Shown here: one piece after another, positions 48,040-58,504 of the stretch
Layout of the letters: every line of letters begins with the position of its first letter
Position numbering within the stretch: the stretch's first letter is position 1
Assembly: GCA_021776915.1 (NCBI GenBank)
Contig: JAIQZU010000029.1
Location: 1-64,000, forward strand
Origin: Candidatus Scalindua sp.
Lineage (GTDB): Bacteria; Planctomycetota; Brocadiia; Brocadiales; Scalinduaceae
Reading direction: 5' to 3'
DNA length: 64,000 bases
Program-made: the position numbers and the translations under genes
The notes under the pieces: generated by a model
Told to the model about the DNA's origin: nothing
The model's input: only the letters and a program-made list of their open reading frames with translations
Databases searched by the model: none

Positions 48040-48253
48040 AAGATGTGTTTTGGAAAATCCTGAAATTTATAATATCCGGTTATATATCAAAATCAAGAGG
48101 AAAGCAGCCTTTGGACCTTCCAAGTTAAGTCGCTTCGCGAAAAAAGGCTATCCTTCGACTTCGCTCAGGATGACGTCAAACTGAGCGGAGTCGAAGTTGT
48201 CACATTGAATTTCCTATGCATCAAGTTAAGCCTTCGGCAACTTTTTGTCGTTG

Positions 48254-48310
48254 CGTAGGGACGTATAATTATCCCCGGACAAACTGCGCCGAGGACTTTA
48301 CGCCCCTACG
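48254..48310. repeat. GTAGGGGCGTA palindrome with a 25-bp repeat nested in its loop
   Basis: CGTAGGGACGTA (48254-48265) and TACGCCCCTACG (48299-48310) are complementary with one mismatch. The loop contains the 25-bp repeat (48272-48296). Related palindromes without the insert are at 59965-59993 and 60787-60816. Confidence 0.75.
48272..48296 (+). repeat. 25-bp dispersed repeat, copy 4, inside a palindrome
   Basis: This copy differs from the 15730 copy by two bases in the middle (ACTGCG for AAGGCG). It occupies the loop of the 48254-48310 palindrome, which suggests insertion into, or a composite with, that element. Confidence 0.7.
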
Positions 48311-48531
48311 TTTTATTACAACATTGAAATTTCTATACATCAAGTCAGGTCGCTATCACTACAAAATTCCTCGACTCCGCTCTCTCCGAGCCAGAGGCTC
48401 TACTAAGCCGGAGGCGGGATGACATCACACTGAGCACATTCGCACGCTCAGTATAAACTCCGTCGAAGTGTTATCAATGATTGAATATACATGGGGATGG
48501 GACAGGAAAGAATACTGCCATTGTAAAATCG

Positions 48532-50154
48532 TCAATGAACAATCTTTTTAAATCTTTCCTCTTCCTCGAATGGAAGAATATGTTCGTGCCTTGGCTCGTG
48601 ACATGTCATGCAGAGTTCTTTATCTGGTTTAAGCTGGCCAACCATTTCTTTGTCAATCTCACCTTTTGAAAGCATTCTCATCGTATTAAGTCTTATATAT
48701 CCATTACCCGCACCATGACACTGTTCGCACTGGACTCCATCTTCAATGCTGAACATAACATCTTTTTTACCGTCAGAATTGTATCCTGTGGAGTGACATG
48801 GTAAACATTTACCGGATTTTTGAGGGTCTCCAGTTTCACCCATTTTTCTGGCTATTTCCTTACCTTTTTCAGTAGCAAGATCAATATATGCGCGTGAGTG
48901 GTTTGTTTCTTTCCATTTCCCATACTGATTACCAATTTTGTCCATACTATGGCAAAATTCACACATGCCTACACCCTGATAAGTCTCCTTCTCAGGGGGC
49001 ATGAAATGTTTTATGTATGATTGAGAAGCATCCGTAACCCTGAAAGGCTCCATCTGCGGAATGATCGGGTCTTCTGCCGCTTGAGGAGTATGGCACTGCA
49101 GGCAATTGTACCGTCTCCCTTCCAATCGATCACTGTTCTGTTCATCCGTATACTCCTTGACAAAATGGGAAACGGGAACCTTCTCTAATCCTTTAATATG
49201 GCATTCGTTGAGGCAAGTATTAATGTTTCTGTTGATTTTATCCTCTAGAATACTATGTGGTATTGCAGGGGGAGCCCCTTCATAAGGCCTGTCAAGATTA
49301 TTGCTTTCTCCCGGTTCACTCGCAGGGAATATATTCATCCCCTGCTGTCCTGAAACAAAGCCTTTTCCGGTAAATATCTCAGGAGATTTTCTCTCCGCTA
49401 AAGAAAGGTGAGCCGGCCCATGGCATTTGAGACATGACATCCTTGATATTCCGGTATTCGGATCCTCGGCAAGATAATCTTCCGCCCTCTTGTGTACACC
49501 CTCTCCGGCCTCAAGAAATGCCTTAGATCCTGAATGACATCGAAGGCACAAGTTGTTTGAGTATCCGTCTTCATCATAAAGCTCAATCTGCTTCTCACCT
49601 GAGCCGGTGGGAGAGTTGGTTATCCAATAGTAAAGGTGTAAAAGCCCCCTACCTTTCGCTTTCCCTATGTCGACTACCCTGTAACCTGCATGGCACTGGT
49701 AGCATTGGCCATGCTGTAAGAAACGATTCTGGTAATGGACTGCCGCCAGTGTATTACTGTTTCTATCTTTCATATCATCAACATAAAGCCCCATTGCACT
49801 GTGGCAAGAACCGCAAAATTCAACTTTTGTTGATCCTTCGAAAGTGGCAAATGAGGCAAAGGCCAGAATAAAGATCGGTAATACAAACAGGTGAATAAAG
49901 CGCTGAAGCTGAATGTTTACAGTACGTAATTGAATACCTAATCGCGCAAAAACAACCCTGGTGATGACAAGAATAATGGCTATAATGGCCAGCACAAGAG
50001 AGATTGTTTCTGCCCACTGAAGAGGGTCTGACACTATCTGGTGTGGCATGTCCAGCGATTGCAAAGTCATCTCACCCTCACCCCTGGCAAAAATAATATC
50101 AGGGATTAATACCATTCCAACTACTGTAAGCTGCTTAAGTATTGTCTTAATCAT
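48532..50154 (-). CDS. Membrane-anchored multiheme cytochrome c with ten heme motifs
   Basis: The 540-residue protein has a hydrophobic start (about 1-22), a membrane helix at about 51-70 and another near 88-105, then an extracytoplasmic heme domain. Nine CXXCH sites occur at about residues 114, 151, 203, 241, 351, 398, 450, 476 and 515, plus a CLNECH (CX3CH) at 314. The first site CGSCHS just after the membrane part is NapC/NrfH-like, while the end (CLPCHSTGY and GVQCEQCHGAG) resembles cytochrome c554. It probably carries electrons between the quinone pool and the NapA-like enzyme encoded two genes upstream. The start overlaps the stop of the cyclic-nucleotide-binding gene by 4 bp. Confidence 0.85.
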   Translation of the reverse strand: MIKTILKQLTVVGMVLIPDIIFARGEGEMTLQSLDMPHQIVSDPLQWAETISLVLAIIAIILVITRVVFARLGIQLRTVNIQLQRFIHLFVLPIFILAFASFATFEGSTKVEFCGSCHSAMGLYVDDMKDRNSNTLAAVHYQNRFLQHGQCYQCHAGYRVVDIGKAKGRGLLHLYYWITNSPTGSGEKQIELYDEDGYSNNLCLRCHSGSKAFLEAGEGVHKRAEDYLAEDPNTGISRMSCLKCHGPAHLSLAERKSPEIFTGKGFVSGQQGMNIFPASEPGESNNLDRPYEGAPPAIPHSILEDKINRNINTCLNECHIKGLEKVPVSHFVKEYTDEQNSDRLEGRRYNCLQCHTPQAAEDPIIPQMEPFRVTDASQSYIKHFMPPEKETYQGVGMCEFCHSMDKIGNQYGKWKETNHSRAYIDLATEKGKEIARKMGETGDPQKSGKCLPCHSTGYNSDGKKDVMFSIEDGVQCEQCHGAGNGYIRLNTMRMLSKGEIDKEMVGQLKPDKELCMTCHEPRHEHILPFEEEERFKKIVH

Positions 50155-50720
50155 GTATCCTTCGTTTTTAATTCTGCCGCACGACTCTGAACAACTTTGT
50201 CTATATTCTCTTTAAGCGCCGGCAGATAATCATGGAGATTTACAAAGTCTCCCCTGGCAATAGTCATTGCTTTAACCGAATCAACCGCTTTTGCCGTTGC
50301 GTTGCGAGGTTTATTACTGGTCATGGCCATTTCACCAAAGTAATCACCCTGCCCCAATTTGGCGATTACTATCTCTCCTCCGCCTGCATCTTCCTTTATA
50401 ATCTCGACATTACCCTGGATAACAGAATAAACAAATTCCGCTTTGTCTCCTTCTTTAAAAATAATTTCCCCCGGCATGAAATTTATATATGCAGTTCCAT
50501 GATGCGAAAAGAACCAGGCAGTGGTAATTATAATATATAAAATCATACCAATAAGGAAGAATGGCTGTGCTATGATTAAAAAAAGCGTTAAATTTACCGG
50601 ATGTAAATTTGAAATGGCCAGAATGGTAATACAGACCGCCAGAAATACAAGAATTTCAGCCGTGATTAATAACCTTCTTAAGTACCTTGGTTTCTGAAGT
50701 TTTGAGGTAAATGTACTCAT
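50151..50720 (-). CDS. Membrane-anchored cyclic-nucleotide-binding-domain protein
   Basis: The 189-residue protein has two membrane helices (about 18-38 and 44-70) and then a cNMP-binding domain (about 78-175): FMPGEIIFKEGDKAEFVYSV, QGNVEIIKED, LGQGDYFGEMAMTSNKPRNA (phosphate-binding cassette with G-E-M-A and R). No DNA-binding domain follows, so it is not a CRP-type regulator. It sits between the NapA-like gene (83-bp gap) and the cytochrome gene (4-bp overlap). It may tune the redox complex in response to a nucleotide or act as an assembly part; this is inference. Confidence 0.82.
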   Translation of the reverse strand: MSTFTSKLQKPRYLRRLLITAEILVFLAVCITILAISNLHPVNLTLFLIIAQPFFLIGMILYIIITTAWFFSHHGTAYINFMPGEIIFKEGDKAEFVYSVIQGNVEIIKEDAGGGEIVIAKLGQGDYFGEMAMTSNKPRNATAKAVDSVKAMTIARGDFVNLHDYLPALKENIDKVVQSRAAELKTKDT

Positions 50721-50803
50721 GATATTTTGCGAATATTCCTTTATGACAATTTTGATTCAAATAATATTTTCTTTATGCCACAAGCTGTACATATACATAT
50801 TGT

Positions 50804-53212
50804 TTATGAAAGGTCTTCTATCTTCTCTATCCTGACAGCACATTTTTTAAAATCCGTCTCTTTGGATATGGGACAGTACGCATCCAGAGTAAGATTATTG
50901 ACCATAACATCTTCATCAAACCAGGGAACATAGACCATTCCTTCCTGAGGAGTTACCCTGCCACCAATCTCTGCGTAAATGTCTATAGATCCCCTTCTGG
51001 AAGAAATCCGGACCTTATCGCCACTGGCCAGGCCAAGCTTCTCTGCATCAGCAGGGTGCAAGTTTGCTGTTGCGTGAGGATATGCTTTATATAGACTCTT
51101 TACCCTCCTCGTCATTGTCCCTGTATGCCAGTGTTCCAATACTCTCCCTGTGCATAACCAGAAAGGATATCCTCCATCAGGCACTTCTGCCGCCGGTTCG
51201 TACGGACGCAGCCAGATTGTAGCCTTATTATCCTCTTTCTTTTTTCCATAGAATTGTATCCCCTTCCCCTGTTCAACATAAGGGTCATGACCTTCCCTGA
51301 AACGAATGATGGTCTCCTTTCCGTCAACCACAGGCCATCTTAATCCCCTGGTTTTATGATAGCTTTCAAAGGGAGCCAGATCATGAGCATGTTTCAGGCC
51401 AAATTGCCGATACTCTTCCCACAATGCCTTTTCTACATAGAACCCCAGGTCTTTACTGATATCGGATGGATTATGATTTTCAGGAAGCGGGAATTCAGAT
51501 GGAGAATAATCAAACAAATTGCCATGTCCCATTCTCTTTGCAAACTCAATAATCTGCCAGAGATCTGATTTTGCCTCTCCCGGCGGGTTCACCATCTTTT
51601 TCCAAAAATGTGTCCTGCGCTCTGCGTTGCCGTAAGCCCCTTCCTTTTCAACCCACATGGCGGTAGGCAAAACCACGTCAGCCACCTCTGTCGAACGTGT
51701 AGGATAAATGTCTGATACAATTATAAAGCTCTCTTCTCTTGACGCTGCCAGCTTGTAACGGTTCAAGTTTGCAAATTCATGAAAAGGATTGGTTACCATA
51801 CTCCAGAATACCCCTATCTCACCTCTCTGCAGAGCACGAAACATACTGACTGCATGGTAGGTAGGCTTGGATGGGATAGTCCCTTCAGGAAGGTTCCAGA
51901 TTTTTTCGGTCCTCTCACGATGTGAAGGATTCATAACCACCATATCCGCCGGCAGCCTGTGTGTGAATGTACCTACTTCCCGGCAGGTACCGCATGCACT
52001 GGGTTGTCCGGTAAGGGAGAAAGGCTGGTTTCCGGGTTCACTGATCTTCCCTGTCAACAAATGGAGATTATATAACAGGTTGTTCATCCATGTGCCGCGT
52101 GTATGTTGGTTTACACCCATCGTCCAGAACGACATGACTTTTATCTCCGGGTCTCCATAAATCTCAGCTAATAGAGTGAGATCGTATGAAGATACTCCAC
52201 TCAATTCTTCTACATATTCCGGCGTGTATCTGGAAACATATTCTTTATAAGTTTCAAAATCGGTCTTTTCCGGTGCGGCTTTAAATTCAAAATCATCCTC
52301 CACTCCGTAACCAATATTCTCTTTACCTTTCTTGAAAAGTATATGCCGTTTTATAAACTCATTGTTAATAAGGTTTTTCTCAACAAGAAGGTTGGCAATG
52401 CCATTTGCTATTGCGAGGTCTGATTGGGGTTTAAAGATTATTTCCCTGTCAGCAAGGTCAGAAGAACGGTTGGAGACGGTAGTAAGATTAATCAGCCTTC
52501 CATGCTTATGCAATAACAGGCGTTCAGAGATTTTTGAATATAAAATGGGATGCATCTCTGCCATATTTGCACCCCAGAGTATAAATGCATCAGCATGGGC
52601 AAAATCATCATAAGAACCCATCGGCTCGTCTATACCGAACGTAGTCATGAAACCGGCAACAGCGCTTGCCATACAATGCCTTGCGTTTACCTCCAGGCTA
52701 TTGGTTCTAAGACCGCCCTTCCAGAGTTTAGACGCTGCGTATCCCTCCCATATTGTCCATTGACCGGAACCGAACATGGCAACCGAATCGCGCCCCTTTT
52801 CCTTTATGGTCTGCTTTGTCTTCCGGACAATCAGGGACATGGCTTCATCCCAGGTAGTAACGGTAAGCTTACCCTGTTTATTATAAACTCCGTTCTTCAT
52901 TCTCACCAGAGGCTTTGTGAGTCTGTCAGCGCCGTATTGGATAAATGGAAGAGCATATCCCTTGACGCATAAAGTACCTCGGTTAACGGAAGATTCAGGG
53001 TCACCTTTAACAGCCATTATGGTTCCGTCTTTTACTCCAACCATAACGCTGCAGCCTGTTCCGCAGAACCGGCAGGGAGCCTTATCCCAGGAAAGATCCT
53101 TATCCGGGTCACCGGCAAATATCTCAAAAGGGTTGAAATAGATGGATGACCCGATTGCACCAAGCGCAATAGAACCATGCTTTATAAATTTTCGCCTGGA
53201 AACATTTCGCAT
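50804..53212 (-). CDS. NapA-like molybdopterin oxidoreductase (periplasmic nitrate reductase type)
   Basis: The 802-residue protein has a Tat signal (SRRKFIKHGSIALGAIGSS, about 5-23), a [4Fe-4S] site C47-RF-C50-GTG-C54 ... C82-VKG (K84), and the Mo ligand C180 in NARHCMASAVAGFM. The motifs TTFGIDEPMGSYDD and WGANMAEMHPILYSKI match NapA closely, and RISSRRGSIDIYA and TGRVLEHWHTGTM are in the cofactor-binding end. It likely reduces nitrate, or a related oxyanion, in the periplasm or its equivalent. No napB, napC, napD, napG or napH is present; the decaheme cytochrome downstream may supply electrons. A related arsenate, selenate or chlorate activity cannot be excluded. Confidence 0.87.
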   Translation of the reverse strand: MRNVSRRKFIKHGSIALGAIGSSIYFNPFEIFAGDPDKDLSWDKAPCRFCGTGCSVMVGVKDGTIMAVKGDPESSVNRGTLCVKGYALPFIQYGADRLTKPLVRMKNGVYNKQGKLTVTTWDEAMSLIVRKTKQTIKEKGRDSVAMFGSGQWTIWEGYAASKLWKGGLRTNSLEVNARHCMASAVAGFMTTFGIDEPMGSYDDFAHADAFILWGANMAEMHPILYSKISERLLLHKHGRLINLTTVSNRSSDLADREIIFKPQSDLAIANGIANLLVEKNLINNEFIKRHILFKKGKENIGYGVEDDFEFKAAPEKTDFETYKEYVSRYTPEYVEELSGVSSYDLTLLAEIYGDPEIKVMSFWTMGVNQHTRGTWMNNLLYNLHLLTGKISEPGNQPFSLTGQPSACGTCREVGTFTHRLPADMVVMNPSHRERTEKIWNLPEGTIPSKPTYHAVSMFRALQRGEIGVFWSMVTNPFHEFANLNRYKLAASREESFIIVSDIYPTRSTEVADVVLPTAMWVEKEGAYGNAERRTHFWKKMVNPPGEAKSDLWQIIEFAKRMGHGNLFDYSPSEFPLPENHNPSDISKDLGFYVEKALWEEYRQFGLKHAHDLAPFESYHKTRGLRWPVVDGKETIIRFREGHDPYVEQGKGIQFYGKKKEDNKATIWLRPYEPAAEVPDGGYPFWLCTGRVLEHWHTGTMTRRVKSLYKAYPHATANLHPADAEKLGLASGDKVRISSRRGSIDIYAEIGGRVTPQEGMVYVPWFDEDVMVNNLTLDAYCPISKETDFKKCAVRIEKIEDLS

Positions 53213-53500
53213 AATTATATACTTAATAGAATAATTTCTTTGTATGTAGCGTTGCTGATTACAACCCTGTTAAATAAGGATGTTATGATTCGAAAGTGGT
53301 TATGTGTGGAATGAAATTTCATAGTTATGTTAAGAAAGCACATTGTATTTAATCTTTAAACAAAGACAACACGGAACTATGAGAATATAAGTTAATATAC
53401 TAACTGCCAAATCACTCATGTCAATAAAAAATGTGGAAACCAGACAATCCCATACTTTCTTCGTTGATTTTCAGATTTAAAATTATTATAAGAACACTCT
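53213..53500. other. Intergenic region between the NapA-like and helicase genes
   Basis: About 290 bp of AT-rich sequence between divergent genes. It should hold the promoter of the NapA-like operon. No FNR-type TTGAT-N4-ATCAA box or other known operator was found by eye. Confidence 0.4.
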
Positions 53501-56425
53501 ATGCTGCCCAGACACCATAAAACCGGTTTCTTCCTTAAAGCAGGGATATTTGATAATCTTTCAAGCTTTGCTGAACTGGAAAAACGCATATCCGGATTAC
53601 CCACAACAGTTGAATCAGGCGATGCCTTTGAGGTGTTTGCCGAAGCCTATTTCTTTACCCAAAAGATTGAACAGGCAGAAGAGGTATGGCCGTTTAAATC
53701 TATCCCTGCCAGGATAAAGCAAGACCTGTCTTTAGGTACTAATCAACAAGACATGGGTGTTGATGGTGTATTCAGGACTACATCAGGTGAATTTAGCGCT
53801 TATCAGGCTAAATTCCGCACAGGGCGCACATCACTTACATGGAGAGAAATATCAACATTTATGGGGCTTACTGACAATGTCAGCCAGCGTGTCTTATTTA
53901 CAAATAGTAACGACATGCCATCAGTAATAAACGATCGTACCGGATTTTATTGTATACGAGGCAATGATCTTGACCGTCTGGACAAGAGTGATTTTGAGAC
54001 TATTCTAAGATGGCTGCAGAGTGGTGTTTTAGAAGTAGAGAGAAAAACACCTCAACCACATCAAACGGAAGCTATAAATGACATATTAACTGCCTTGGAA
54101 GATGAAGATCGTGCTACCGCCCTTATGGCCTGTGGCACCGGCAAGACACTTGTTTCTCTATGGCTTTCAGAGCGAATGAACTGTCGGAATATTTTAGTAC
54201 TCCTTCCTTCCCTGACACTTGTAAGGCAAACCCTGCATGAATGGCTAAGGGAAACACAGTGGCAGCATCTTTCCTATTTATGTGTCTGTTCAGACCCTAC
54301 TGTTGCAGGCAGGGAACTTGATAGTATAAAAGTTAATCAGTCTGATCTTGATTTTGCAGTTACTACTGAAAGCAGTAATGTAAAACAGTTTCTTTCCCAA
54401 GGTACTGAAGGCGTCAAAATTGTATTCTCTACATATCAGTCTGCTCACATTGTCGCAGAAGGAATGGACAATAATTATCGGTTTGATCTTGGAATCTTTG
54501 ATGAAGCACACAAGACAGCAGGGAGAGAAGGCAAAAAGTTTGGCTTTGCACTGAAAGACGATAATTTGCGTATCAAGAAACGCCTGTTCCTAACGGCCAC
54601 CCCCAGACACTACAATTTAAACAAAAGGAATGAAGAAGGAGATTTTGGCCTTGTCTACTCTATGGACGACCCTGATCAATACGGCAAGGTAGCGCACCAA
54701 TTATCTTTTGCTGCAGCAGCGCGTCAGGACATAATCTGCAACTATAAAGTAATCATATCAGTGGTTACATCAGAACAGGTCAGCAAAGAACTTCTAAGAA
54801 GAGGCGAAGTATTAATCAATGGCGATGTGGTGAATGCCCAACAGGTTGCAAGCCAGATTGCCTTTAAAGAAGCTGTAAAAAAATATAACATCAGGCGAAT
54901 ATTTACTTTCCATCGATCAGTTGCTACGGCAAAATCATTTACCGGAAAAGGTTCTGAAGGAATCTGCGCACAACTGCCAGAGTTCAACACTTTTCATGTA
55001 AACGGAACAATGCCTACCGCAATGCGTGAAGGAATTATGAATGAATTTAAGGACTCTGATTCTTCTGTTATTTCTAATGCACGTTGTCTTACAGAAGGTG
55101 TAAATCTGCCTGCAGTTGACATGGTAGCCTTCATGTCACCCAAGAAAAGCAAGGTAGATATAGTACAGGCAACAGGGCGGGCAATGCGAAAAGACCCTCA
55201 AAATCCTGATAAGGTTCTTGGTTATATATTAGTCCCGCTTTATCTGGAAATAACAACAGGGGAGAGCATAGAGAGTGCTGTAGCCAAAGCAGACTTCGGA
55301 GAAGTCTGGAATGTATTACAGGCACTGCAGGAACAGGATGAAATCCTTGCTGATGTTATCAGGCAAATACAGGAAGATAAGGGGAAGGGTGGAAAACTAA
55401 AAGGTGATGATTTTGGTGACATTATAGATGTTTTTGGTGTAGATATTTCACTTAAGACTCTTCAAGAATCAATTACGGCGGTGTGTATAGATAAACTGGG
55501 ATTTACATGGGATATGAGATATGGAGAGTTAATAAAATATAAAGAACAATTTGGAAATTGTAATGTTTCTCAAGGATGGTCAGAAAATAAAAGCCTTGCT
55601 AATTGGGTAAGAAGTCAACGTATGGCTTATCGAGACAACCAACTTAGTAATGATCGTATCAAACGGCTAGAAGATATAGGCTTTGATTGGGATCCACTTG
55701 AATCACAGTGGGTAGAGATGTTTGATACTCTAAAGGAATATAAAAATATTCATGGAGATTGTAACGTGCCTATTGGTTGGCTAGAAAACGAGAAACTTGC
55801 ACAATGGGTAATTAACCAACGTACATTATATCAAGACGGAAGACTTAATGATGACCATATTAAGGGTTTAGAAGATATCGGTTTTGTATGGGATCCAGTA
55901 TGGGAAGATATGTTTAATACATTAAAAGAATATAAGAACTATTACGGTGATTGTAATGTTTCTGTCCACTGGAAACTTGGACAATGGGCGGTGGCTCAAC
56001 GCACAAATTATAAAAACAATAATCTTAGTGAAGACCGTATCAAGCGTTTAGAAGGTATAGGCTTTGAGTGGGCATCACATAGAAAAGAGAGGGATAGATA
56101 TAGTGGTAGAAACAGGAGTGTAAAGAGTATTAAAAAGTGGGAACAGATGTTTGATGTATTAAGAAAATATAAAGAAGACCATGGAAATTGTAATGTTCCC
56201 AGTAAGTGGACAGAAAACAAGCGTCTAGCATATTGGGTGGCAACACAACGTACAAATTATACAAACAAGCAACTTAGTAATGACCGCATCAAGCGTTTAG
56301 AAGATATCGGCTTTGAGTGGCGTGCAGATAGTTCGTTGTTGAAAGAACAGAGTGAAAAGAGATGGAAAGAGAAATTTGATATGCTAAAAGAGTATAAGAA
56401 TAAGCATGGAAATTACAACAGATAA
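53501..56425 (+). CDS. Nuclease-helicase protein with helicase-associated repeats, truncated in the fifth repeat
   Basis: The 974-residue protein has four parts. Residues 40-110 have a restriction-endonuclease-like pattern: E44, D88 in GVDGVF, and Q102-A-K104 in YQAKFR. An SF2 helicase follows with MACGTGKT (209-216), FDEAHKT (about 331-337), LTATPR and QATGRAMRKDP. Then come helicase-associated (HA) repeats starting at about W670, W736, W800, W879 and W954, each with YKxxxGxCNV, W, LAxWVxxQR, RIKRLEDIGFxW. The fifth stops after HGNYNR, 20 residues into a 65-residue unit. The TAA stop lies exactly where a duplicated higA segment begins (56424), so the 3' end appears lost. Similar proteins are large stand-alone DNA-processing or defence enzymes. 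Confidence 0.75.
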   Translation: MLPRHHKTGFFLKAGIFDNLSSFAELEKRISGLPTTVESGDAFEVFAEAYFFTQKIEQAEEVWPFKSIPARIKQDLSLGTNQQDMGVDGVFRTTSGEFSAYQAKFRTGRTSLTWREISTFMGLTDNVSQRVLFTNSNDMPSVINDRTGFYCIRGNDLDRLDKSDFETILRWLQSGVLEVERKTPQPHQTEAINDILTALEDEDRATALMACGTGKTLVSLWLSERMNCRNILVLLPSLTLVRQTLHEWLRETQWQHLSYLCVCSDPTVAGRELDSIKVNQSDLDFAVTTESSNVKQFLSQGTEGVKIVFSTYQSAHIVAEGMDNNYRFDLGIFDEAHKTAGREGKKFGFALKDDNLRIKKRLFLTATPRHYNLNKRNEEGDFGLVYSMDDPDQYGKVAHQLSFAAAARQDIICNYKVIISVVTSEQVSKELLRRGEVLINGDVVNAQQVASQIAFKEAVKKYNIRRIFTFHRSVATAKSFTGKGSEGICAQLPEFNTFHVNGTMPTAMREGIMNEFKDSDSSVISNARCLTEGVNLPAVDMVAFMSPKKSKVDIVQATGRAMRKDPQNPDKVLGYILVPLYLEITTGESIESAVAKADFGEVWNVLQALQEQDEILADVIRQIQEDKGKGGKLKGDDFGDIIDVFGVDISLKTLQESITAVCIDKLGFTWDMRYGELIKYKEQFGNCNVSQGWSENKSLANWVRSQRMAYRDNQLSNDRIKRLEDIGFDWDPLESQWVEMFDTLKEYKNIHGDCNVPIGWLENEKLAQWVINQRTLYQDGRLNDDHIKGLEDIGFVWDPVWEDMFNTLKEYKNYYGDCNVSVHWKLGQWAVAQRTNYKNNNLSEDRIKRLEGIGFEWASHRKERDRYSGRNRSVKSIKKWEQMFDVLRKYKEDHGNCNVPSKWTENKRLAYWVATQRTNYTNKQLSNDRIKRLEDIGFEWRADSSLLKEQSEKRWKEKFDMLKEYKNKHGNYNR

Positions 56426-56818
56426 ATAGGGTCAGGTCTTTATTCTTGATATTATCCATTTAGCTCTTAAATCAAAGCTTATCTGTTTTCAGGAAAACTG
56501 TCTGTTTTTTTTAATTCATTGATCTAGATACGCTTCGCTTTATACAAATCCCAACGAAGCTGCAGGTTCATCCAGAAATCTTCCGAAACTCCAAAAAACT
56601 TTGAGAGCCGCAGGGCTGTACTGGGTGTTATTCCCCAACATTTATTAATAATTTCGTTTACTCTCTGGTATGGAACATGAATCTCATTTGACAACTCCCT
56701 CTGGGTAATACCCATAGGGATTAGAAATTCATCGAGAAGCATCTCCCCTGGATGTGTTGGTTCACGAATCATTTTTACCTCCAATAATAAATGTTTGTTT
56801 TATATCAACGATAGTCAA
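56424..56818. repeat. higA segment duplication, copy A (395 bp)
   Basis: This segment repeats 57339-57749 and includes an orphan higA and an AATAGGGTCAGGTCTTTATT tail (56426-56445). It lacks the higB gene, though the sequence at its right end still reads VFDYR and stop on the minus strand, close to the VVDYH end of HigB. Confidence 0.75.
56524..56772 (-). CDS. Orphan, partly degraded HigA-type antitoxin
   Basis: From ATG 56772, 6 bases after GGAGGT, the 82-residue protein reads MIREPTHPGEMLLDEFLIPM and GITQRELSNEIHVPYQRVNE with a Xre-type helix-turn-helix. It is nearly identical to the HigA at 57404, but the conserved RRGITP is CWGITP and it stops 13 codons early. No toxin gene precedes it. 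It may still bind the shared operator or toxin, or be decaying. Confidence 0.75.
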   Translation of the reverse strand: MIREPTHPGEMLLDEFLIPMGITQRELSNEIHVPYQRVNEIINKCWGITPSTALRLSKFFGVSEDFWMNLQLRWDLYKAKRI

Positions 56819-56889
56819 ACACCATCTGGCAAAAAGTTACAAAGGAAATAGTTAGCGGCAATTAGGGACAGCGACTATTTATTCCTGCT

Positions 56890-57306
56890 TTAATAATTGA
56901 CCCACCAACCCGAATAATCTTCCATAAGTTGATAATTAGGATTTTCTTCATCCTCTGCGGTGAGCCAATCCATGCGAATCTTGAATATTTTATTATCGCT
57001 TATTCGCCGAACTTTTGCGAATATATCTGTATTTTCAGGCTCAAGTAATTCTATTAATTCAAACGAATCGGCATAGGACGGATTTTCTTTTTTTAATTCT
57101 TCATATTCTTCTTCATCTCCATAGCCAAGCAAGAAACGTTCTTCCCATGGAAAATCTTCTATTCCTGTCAGTTTACATGGATAGTTTATATTTGCTTTCA
57201 AGTAATTGTAATACTTATTTGTACTATTCAGATTCTTTTCAGTATCTGATTCTTTGTCGCCCAGTATTTTGATTATCCTCTTTTTTTGTTTATCTAAATT
57301 ATCCAT
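56890..57306 (-). CDS. Uncharacterised acidic protein (TGIEDFPWEE family)
   Basis: The 138-residue protein contains YPCKLTGIEDFPWEERFLLG, YGDEEEYEELKKENPSYADS, FELIELLEPENTDIFAKVRR and NYQLMEDYSGWWVNY. I recall this conserved PCKLTGIEDFPWEE...PSYTD...NYQLLDDYS pattern in hypothetical proteins of many bacteria, some listed as calcium-binding, without known function. The ATG at 57306 lies directly after a 27-base sequence that also occurs at 56816-56840, so the gene sits between repeated sequences in a rearranged toxin-antitoxin region. Confidence 0.6.
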   Translation of the reverse strand: MDNLDKQKKRIIKILGDKESDTEKNLNSTNKYYNYLKANINYPCKLTGIEDFPWEERFLLGYGDEEEYEELKKENPSYADSFELIELLEPENTDIFAKVRRISDNKIFKIRMDWLTAEDEENPNYQLMEDYSGWWVNY

Positions 57307-57338
57307 CAAACACCATCTGGTAAAAAGTTATAGGAGAC

Positions 57339-57749
57339 AAATAGGGTCAGGTCTTTATTCTTGATACTATCCATTTAACTCTTTAATCAAAACCTATGTA
57401 TTTTCAGGAAAACTGTCTGATAGTTTTTAATTCTTTTGTCTCGATACGCTTTGCTTTATACAAATCCCAACGAAGCTGCAGGTTCATCCAGAAATCTTCC
57501 GAAACTCCAAAAAACTTTGAGAGCCGCAGGGCTGTACTGGGTGTTATTCCCCGCCGTTTATTAACAATTTCGTTTACTCTCTGGTATGGGACATGAATCT
57601 CTTTTGATAGCTCCCTCTGGGTAATATCCATAGGGATTAAAAATTCTTCTAGAAGCATCTCCCCGGGATGTGTTGGTTCACGATGTGTTGGTACACGAAT
57701 CATTTTTACCTCCAATAATAAATGTTTGTTTTATATCAATGATAGTCAA
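57339..57749. repeat. higA segment duplication, copy B (411 bp)
   Basis: It matches 56424-56818 with scattered mismatches and one 15-bp internal tandem duplication (the GATGTGTTGGTTCAC and GATGTGTTGGTACAC words at 57667-57696), which adds five residues near the start of this HigA. Confidence 0.75.
57404..57703 (-). CDS. higA: HigA-type antitoxin (Xre helix-turn-helix)
   Basis: From ATG 57703, after GGAGGT, the 99-residue protein reads MIRVPTHREPTHPGEMLLEE, ITQRELSKEIHVPYQRVNEI and VNKRRGITPSTALRLSKFFG, the standard HigA. The N-terminus has a tandem copy of a five-residue unit that is absent from copy A. It follows the HigB gene by 32 bp, the usual toxin-first order, and should repress the operon together with HigB. 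Confidence 0.9.
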   Translation of the reverse strand: MIRVPTHREPTHPGEMLLEEFLIPMDITQRELSKEIHVPYQRVNEIVNKRRGITPSTALRLSKFFGVSEDFWMNLQLRWDLYKAKRIETKELKTIRQFS

Positions 57750-58029
57750 CAACTTCTACTTTCTCCGGTTCGGAGTCCTTCCATTCAAAACATATACGAT
57801 ACTGATCATTTATTCTAATACTGTACTGTCCTTTCCTGTTTCCGGTAAGAGCCTCAAATCTATTTCCAAGAGGAATTCTAAGCTCTCTCATGGATTTAAT
57901 GGAATCAAGTTGATCTAATTTCCTTGAGGCAATATACCATAAAGCTCGTGGACATATCTTTCTGGCACTCTTTGTATTCTTGCCGTTGAATATATCTTCT
58001 GTTCCCTGGCCTTTGAATGACTTAATCAC
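57736..58029 (-). CDS. higB: HigB-type toxin (RelE superfamily)
   Basis: HigB toxins cut mRNA on the ribosome. The protein has VIKSFKGQGTEDIFNGKNTK, ARKICPRALWYIASRKLDQL, LRIPLGNRFEALTGNRKGQY and SIRINDQYRICFEWKDSEPE, ending VEVVDYH, all typical. The start is uncertain: GTG 58029 gives 97 residues beginning at the usual M/V-IKSF; ATG 58050 would add seven. No strong ribosome site is visible for either. Confidence 0.9.
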   Translation of the reverse strand: MIKSFKGQGTEDIFNGKNTKSARKICPRALWYIASRKLDQLDSIKSMRELRIPLGNRFEALTGNRKGQYSIRINDQYRICFEWKDSEPEKVEVVDYH

Positions 58030-58111
58030 AGAAACATGATAGCACGGCATCCATGCTATTTCAATATTAAAATATTTTGGAAATGAGTATCACATTCCAC
58101 CCAAAGGATTG

Positions 58112-58162
58112 GCGCCCGCTCGTGCCGGTACCTTGCCCGACTACGTCATTCAGGCGGGCGGA
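58112..58162. repeat. GC-rich palindromic stretch (GCCCGC family)
   Basis: A GC-rich segment with GCCCGCTCG, TTGCCCGAC and CAGGCGGGCGG words, like the element at 7412-7463. It lies between the higB gene and the ABC-ATPase fragment. Confidence 0.4.
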
Positions 58163-58262
58163 TGGGGACAAGCCAGCCACTTGACCCAATTCCACATTTA
58201 ACGCTTTAATCAGAACTCATGTGATTTCAAATTGTAAATCTGAAACCAACAATCATAAATCG

Positions 58263-58382
58263 CTACAGGTACGCTGATATTTCACTGACGGTTCCTATCT
58301 TTTGAATCTTCCCGCTTTCCATAACCACTATTCTTGTAGCTAAAGAAAATGCCTCATCTCTGTCATGTGTTACATAAATCAT
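58263..58382 (-). pseudogene. C-terminal fragment of an ABC transporter ATPase
   Basis: The frame encodes 39 residues starting MIYVTHDRDEAFSLATRIVV and then MESGKIQKIGTVSEISAYL and stop. This is the region around the H-loop (THD) of an import-type ABC ATPase of the ModC/CysA/PotA kind, matching the usual YVTHDxxEAxxLAxRIVVMxxGxIxQxGT. The Walker A, signature and Walker B regions are missing upstream, so the gene is a remnant. Confidence 0.75.
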
Positions 58383-58504
58383 AGTTATTAGTTCTTGCTT
58401 CCTGCCCACTGCCCACTGCCAATTGTCTATTGCCTGCTTTCAACCTGCTTCTCCCTCTCTATGATTATCTCCGCGCTCTTTGCGTCTGGCGGTGAATATT
58501 ACTT

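Follow-up and report, generated by a model that had tools for sequence, protein, structure and literature searches.

How are electrons delivered to a periplasmic nitrate reductase that seems to have lost all of its standard partners? This question is raised by positions 48532-53212 of a 64,000-nt window (the whole stretch of DNA that was analysed, to which all positions refer) of contig JAIQZU010000029.1, a 73 kb contig in a draft assembly of Candidatus Scalindua sp. A sequence-only reading had described a unit of three genes there, encoding a NapA-like enzyme, a membrane protein with a domain for cyclic nucleoside monophosphates (cNMPs) and a decaheme cytochrome, with NapB, NapC, NapD and NapGH all missing. 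Our analysis indicates that two of these partners are hidden inside the cytochrome. We consider it probable that the locus encodes a mosaic periplasmic nitrate reductase which an anaerobic ammonium-oxidizing (anammox) bacterium acquired horizontally. The enzyme would be fed by quinol and carries two gene fusions, and a cyclic-nucleotide-binding domain (cNBD) may adjust its quinol side.

The three open reading frames (ORFs) were found on the minus strand where they had been described, in the order napA (50804..53212, 802 aa), the gene of the hairpin-cNBD protein (50151..50720, 189 aa) and that of the cytochrome (48532..50154, 540 aa). The last two genes overlap by ATGA and 83 bp separate napA from its neighbour. 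Promoter-like sites in the region were no more frequent than expected by chance (13 found, 13.6 expected), so the assignment to one operon, which had been proposed earlier, rests on spacing and overlap; both agree with it, and a single transcript is likewise suggested by them.

NapA and the modules of the cytochrome

The catalytic subunit scored 1153 bits against the NAPA equivalog TIGR01706 (cut-off 930.55) and its best solved matches in the Protein Data Bank (PDB) were NapA chains. The cysteines of the [4Fe-4S] cluster (C47-C50-C54-C82) and the Mo-Cys (C180) are kept, as previously read from the sequence, and a twin-arginine (Tat) motif, SRRKFIK, is present. By these marks the 802-aa molybdoenzyme can be regarded as a true NapA, with a predicted nitrate reductase activity.

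The heme motifs of the cytochrome, nine CXXCH and one CX3CH (CLNECH), agree with the first description and split 4+2+4 over three modules, each of which exceeds the curated cut-off of its family within one protein. The NapC-like module (49390..50019, minus strand) combines two transmembrane (TM) helices (about residues 46-104) with four hemes at residues 114, 151, 203 and 241, and matches the NapC/NirT family PF03264 at residues 92-245 (39.3 bits, cut-off 24.1). It is followed by a NapB module (about residues 273-371; 49042..49338, minus strand) that matches PF03892 at residues 280-365 (68 bits, cut-off 25.1) as well as a solved NapB chain in the PDB (1.7e-11), carries the heme motifs CLNECH (residue 314) and CLQCH (residue 351) and keeps both distal histidine motifs, PPAIPH and SHF. 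The third module, a c554-type tetraheme (about residues 390-530; 48565..48987, minus strand), matches PF13435 at residues 398-481 (63.4 bits) and has its hemes at residues 398, 450, 476 and 515. The decaheme protein thereby reads as a fusion in which a NapC-like tetraheme with two helices is joined to a NapB diheme and then to a c554-type tetraheme, and not as a substitute for NapB and NapC.

The absence of NapB and NapC was accordingly rejected, since the PF03892 and PF03264 profiles match inside the decaheme protein. The part of the claim that concerned NapD held: PF03927 matched nothing in the own genome (completeness 95%). NapG, NapH and NapF were not seen beside the operon, and no genome-wide search for them was made. 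A contig scan that used the fusion as its only query gave 36 pattern matches and no relative among them, and a plasmid search with the fusion gave partial matches only.

A membrane hairpin beside NapC-like genes

The cNMP-binding domain of the 189-aa protein (residues 80-162; 50235..50483, minus strand) was recovered with 76.7 bits by PF00027 (cut-off 27.5). It is the only domain found and the protein ends at residue 189, in line with the earlier remark that a DNA-binding part is missing; a CRP/FNR-type regulator was rejected for want of a C-terminal helix-turn-helix. The phosphate-binding cassette FGEMAMTSNKPRNATAKA (residues 128-145; 50286-50339, minus strand) has the length, the spacing and the key Glu and Arg of PKA- and PKG-type sites in cNMP-binding structures, and the putative cNMP site thus appears intact. 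The charge around the membrane part, where KPRYLRR precedes helix 1, suggests that NapA and the domain are on opposite sides.

The remainder of this protein is a two-helix membrane hairpin (residues 11-74; 50499..50690, minus strand). In two planctomycete loci the gene after a NapC-like one encodes a small protein with two helices that resembles this hairpin, and a profile of those proteins together with the window sequence detected similar short ORFs directly 3' of the NapC-like gene in other loci. A leave-window-out hidden Markov model (HMM) was built from 11 hairpin proteins with the window sequence excluded and run on 23,412 frames (other loci and the whole window); it ranked the window protein first (E 1.8e-6); some of the training proteins had initially come from a search whose profile included the window sequence. 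The second match (0.08) was a short ORF directly 3' of a NapC-like gene and the third (0.28) was background. The same adjacency was seen in three more loci (Nitrospirota, Elusimicrobiota and Krumholzibacteriota). Altogether, a hairpin gene lies directly 3' of the NapC-like gene in 15/15 examined loci from five phyla (L120, L240-L250, L254, L255, L270), a set collected by homology to the window and not by a blind census, from which two further NapC-like matches, one in G490 and one at a contig edge (L237), are left out. This adjacency is independent of the choice of profile.

Members of the hairpin family comprise 66-86 residues and two helices and belong to no Pfam family, apart from one weak, sub-threshold match to DUF6358. 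In an AlphaFold 2 single-sequence model of the hairpin-cNBD protein, with a predicted local distance difference test score (pLDDT) of 51.9 overall, only the hairpin helices are credible (residues 11-37 and 41-74; pLDDT about 75-83). Because of the 15/15 adjacency and the first rank in the profile search, the cNMP protein can be described as the hairpin partner of a NapC-like protein plus a nucleotide-binding domain; on this reading the cNMP domain was added to a pair of helices that is conserved as the partner of NapC-like quinol dehydrogenases. The link between this protein and the electron chain, formerly drawn from co-transcription, thereby gains independent support from the conserved NapC-like/hairpin pairing.

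The core set of a NapA-type enzyme, a NapC-like two-helix tetraheme and a hairpin protein is conserved in other Planctomycetota and in Bacteroidota, and the NapC-like/hairpin pair occurs also in Nitrospirota, Elusimicrobiota and Krumholzibacteriota. Among the loci and genomes searched, the full three-gene architecture was seen once, and neither the fusion cytochrome nor the hairpin-cNBD protein was found elsewhere. The unit is therefore distinct, as had been supposed, in its two fusions, and shared with other lineages in its core association.

In L246 and L247 the pair stands next to c554 and nine-heme cytochromes, with no NapA, and in Elusimicrobiota (L255) it adjoins a cluster with a decaheme cytochrome, which argues that the module is not specific to Nap. 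From this one might suppose that the unit runs mainly in another direction or on another substrate, with the decaheme protein as an electron outlet or exchange hub (from c554 to HAO-like or extracellular partners) and NapA as one of several users. However, the NapA and NapB modules are orthodox and co-inherited and napA stands in the same gene run, and we hold such a role to be distinctly unlikely.

The addition of the cNBD can be explained in more than one way. Proteins with this domain are common (the own genome has 13 matches and G021, another genome of the class, has 25), so a chance fusion would be easy, and it could be recent and without consequence; besides, all 15 other hairpin proteins were seen without a cNBD. 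It is a serious possibility that the domain, whether degenerate or sensing no more than the energy state, was simply added for signalling or tethering and leaves electron flow unaffected, and that the hairpin acts for the NapC-like module in the way it does in other phyla. The retained Glu and Arg at standard spacing and the intact PF00027 match speak against this explanation. At the other end, a cyclic nucleotide might directly control the respiratory complex, the cNBD on the subunit of the NapC-like dehydrogenase switching electron flow into NapA. Nucleotide control of electron flow would be better motivated by the conserved hairpin than it was before, and yet such a direct switch seems to us unlikely.

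Origin of the modules and the island

In a NapA tree of 112 rows the protein that had been called NapA-like falls in a 7-row clade with a Shimodaira-Hasegawa-like approximate likelihood ratio test (SH-aLRT) support of 100, in which a planctomycete relative counts as two rows of identical sequence and the other members are Elusimicrobiota and a Krumholzibacteriia bacterium. The latter is the sister of the window NapA (73% identity, SH-aLRT 96). All 5 distinct clade relatives have a NapB match just 3' of napA, and their NapB is 42-48% identical to the window module, all others reaching at most 35%. Since the NapA clade and the NapB identities agree, NapA and the NapB module can be assigned to the same source, which appears to be a two-gene napAB lineage. 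Its clusters (L121, L122-L124, L129), from Krumholzibacteriota, Elusimicrobiota and the planctomycete DeMMO2_28, hold the closest NapA (67-73%) along with the closest NapB. Unlike the window unit, they are separate two-gene units with no NapC-like or hairpin gene beside napA.

In one Elusimicrobiota genome (G432) the NapC-like/hairpin pair lies elsewhere on the napA contig (L255, G432:C52), where it follows a decaheme cytochrome and a 666-aa protein in what looks, by eye, like an Mtr-type conduit cluster. An apparent NapA-NapB fusion in L122 was rejected, as the long ORF is in a frame other than that of napA and reflects high-GC read-through; a 751-aa frame surrounding the G254 match to NapB was regarded as read-through of the same kind. 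Upstream of many planctomycete napA genes stands a gene for an octaheme cytochrome of about 530-590 aa (L093, L099, L100, L103, L106; PF13447 in L093), and multi-TM and other genes often lie there too, which suggests another Nap arrangement.

The NapC-like module points to a different source. It matches a two-helix tetraheme whose gene directly adjoins that of a divergent NapA, both in family f29 of the Planctomycetota and in Persicobacter, with 36-40% identity to the f29 tetrahemes over the aligned part. Identities were 26-34% to NapC-like proteins of Planctomycetota, Bacteroidota and Nitrospirota, whereas three proteobacterial NapC reached 17-22%; unlike those, the module has two TM helices. 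The f29 and Persicobacter clusters (L240-L245, L249, L120) resemble the window in having a NapC-like module and a hairpin beside a NapA-type enzyme. In contrast to the window, this enzyme is only about 40% identical to the window NapA and below the NAPA cut-off where tested, and no NapB, c554 or cNBD was detected in the cluster. The c554 module, with 40-45% identity to tetrahemes of related anammox genomes and 33-41% to those of Krumholzibacteriota, seems about equally close to both. Related anammox genomes also share a conserved pair (L116-L119 and G000:C73:24578-24976), made up of a tetraheme c554 of about 200 aa and, after it, a cytochrome of 252 aa with seven CXXCH motifs.

A match to the alpha subunit of hydrazine synthase exceeded the cut-off in the own genome, and such matches were present in 23/29 genomes searched (own included) and in 0/14 controls. 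This distribution places the genome in the anammox order, which we take to be Brocadiales. At E values up to 1e-100, NapA was found in only 2 of the 75 genomes of the class, the own one and G021 (L089), a genome of another family whose NapA is 56% identical. At 5702-9290 of contig C107 of G021, a soluble protein is encoded ahead of this NapA; it has a cNMP-binding domain (phmmer 1.3e-12) and, by eye, an FHA-like part, and no NapB or NapC match is adjacent; this second NapA/cNBD neighbourhood in the order is possibly due to chance, given the 25 cNBD matches of that genome.

Two genomes of the same genus, G001 and G011, have both flanks of the locus at mostly 82-95% DNA identity (blastn, genus DNA search) and lack positions 48047..58483 (no strand, about 10.4 kb); according to the relatives' ORFs, 1.1 and 2.4 kb of other genes are found there instead. 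The region is thus a lineage-specific island at a variable locus. An island gene set confined to one species, and perhaps not expressed, could be a transient and non-functional acquisition. The rarity of NapA in the class, the mobile-type genes and dispersed repeat at the island flank and the irregular heme motifs speak for this. On the other hand, none of the three ORFs is disrupted and the last two overlap, the catalytic and ligand residues are kept, and joining modules of different origin implies time under selection; we give this explanation little credence.

The dispersed repeat at the island edge (48118-48486) is made up of pieces of about 110 bp and 60 bp. Copies with about 80-99% identity occur on many of the own genome's contigs as well as in further genomes of the same genus, and the repeat resembles a MITE-like or palindromic interspersed element. 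The rest of the island (53501-58050) encodes a DEAD-type helicase whose C-terminal part repeats 'helicase-associated' units, with repeat matches to the relative in G008; two HigA-like antitoxin genes and a single HigB-like toxin gene were recognised there by eye.

Electron route and relation to known systems

From family knowledge and the module composition we infer the electron route, the direction of the reaction and any regulatory role as follows. At the membrane, the NapC-like module and the hairpin protein would jointly oxidise quinol, electrons would run along the ten-heme fusion and enter NapA via the NapB module, and NapA would reduce nitrate to nitrite. With the NapC-like part, NapB and the extra tetraheme on one chain, the electron path would be tethered to the membrane; the c554 module would extend the wire and may link it to other cytochromes. 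The hairpin-borne cNBD would most likely adjust the assembly or activity of the quinol-oxidising part.

Several features weigh against this quinol-fed nitrate reductase. The first heme motif of the NapB module, CLNECH, contains one extra residue where the aligned relatives have CXXCH. Heme-1 of the NapC-like module is CGSCHSAM, its methionine standing one residue beyond CXXCHXM, and relatives of the module have CXXCHVM, CXXCHTM or CXXCHEM; for this departure we named the module NapC-like, not NapC. Loading of the Mo cofactor and Tat export would need another helper in place of NapD. Both nucleotide binding by the cNBD and its contact with the cytochrome are putative. Finally, the architecture comes from one draft assembly and might be a peculiarity of the assembly or the population, although every ORF is intact and the contig extends over 73 kb.

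The classical Nap system (NapA-NapB-NapC; PF03892, PF03264, TIGR01706) likewise has the NapA equivalog and the NapB and NapC/NirT modules, with the same presumed electron route. Unlike there, NapB, the NapC-like part and an extra c554-type tetraheme form one chain in the window, and NapD was not found in the own genome. Partner sets of Nap are known to vary. In Desulfovibrio and Caldithrix, NapM, a tetraheme, replaces NapB (PMC5317091); NapB is truly absent there, whereas it is a fused module here. Nap of Wolinella works without NapC (PMC12780646). By function, the unit may be likened to the anammox electron transfer module (PMC8862662), also a proposed cytochrome relay from quinol to an enzyme, which connects the quinone pool to hydrazine synthase and not to NapA. 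In the open-access literature, nothing specific was found on a NapC/NapB/c554 fusion, on the hairpin family, on a cNBD attached to either or on a link between nap and cNMP.

Apparently, NapC-like quinol dehydrogenases have a recurrent and so far undescribed small subunit in the membrane, the hairpin, and the natural fusion suggests which partners belong together. The hairpin-cNBD protein is a concrete candidate for second-messenger control of a respiratory chain. If the proposed function is true, an anammox bacterium would have an enzyme for the conversion of nitrate to nitrite other than NXR, which bears on how these cells make their own nitrite.

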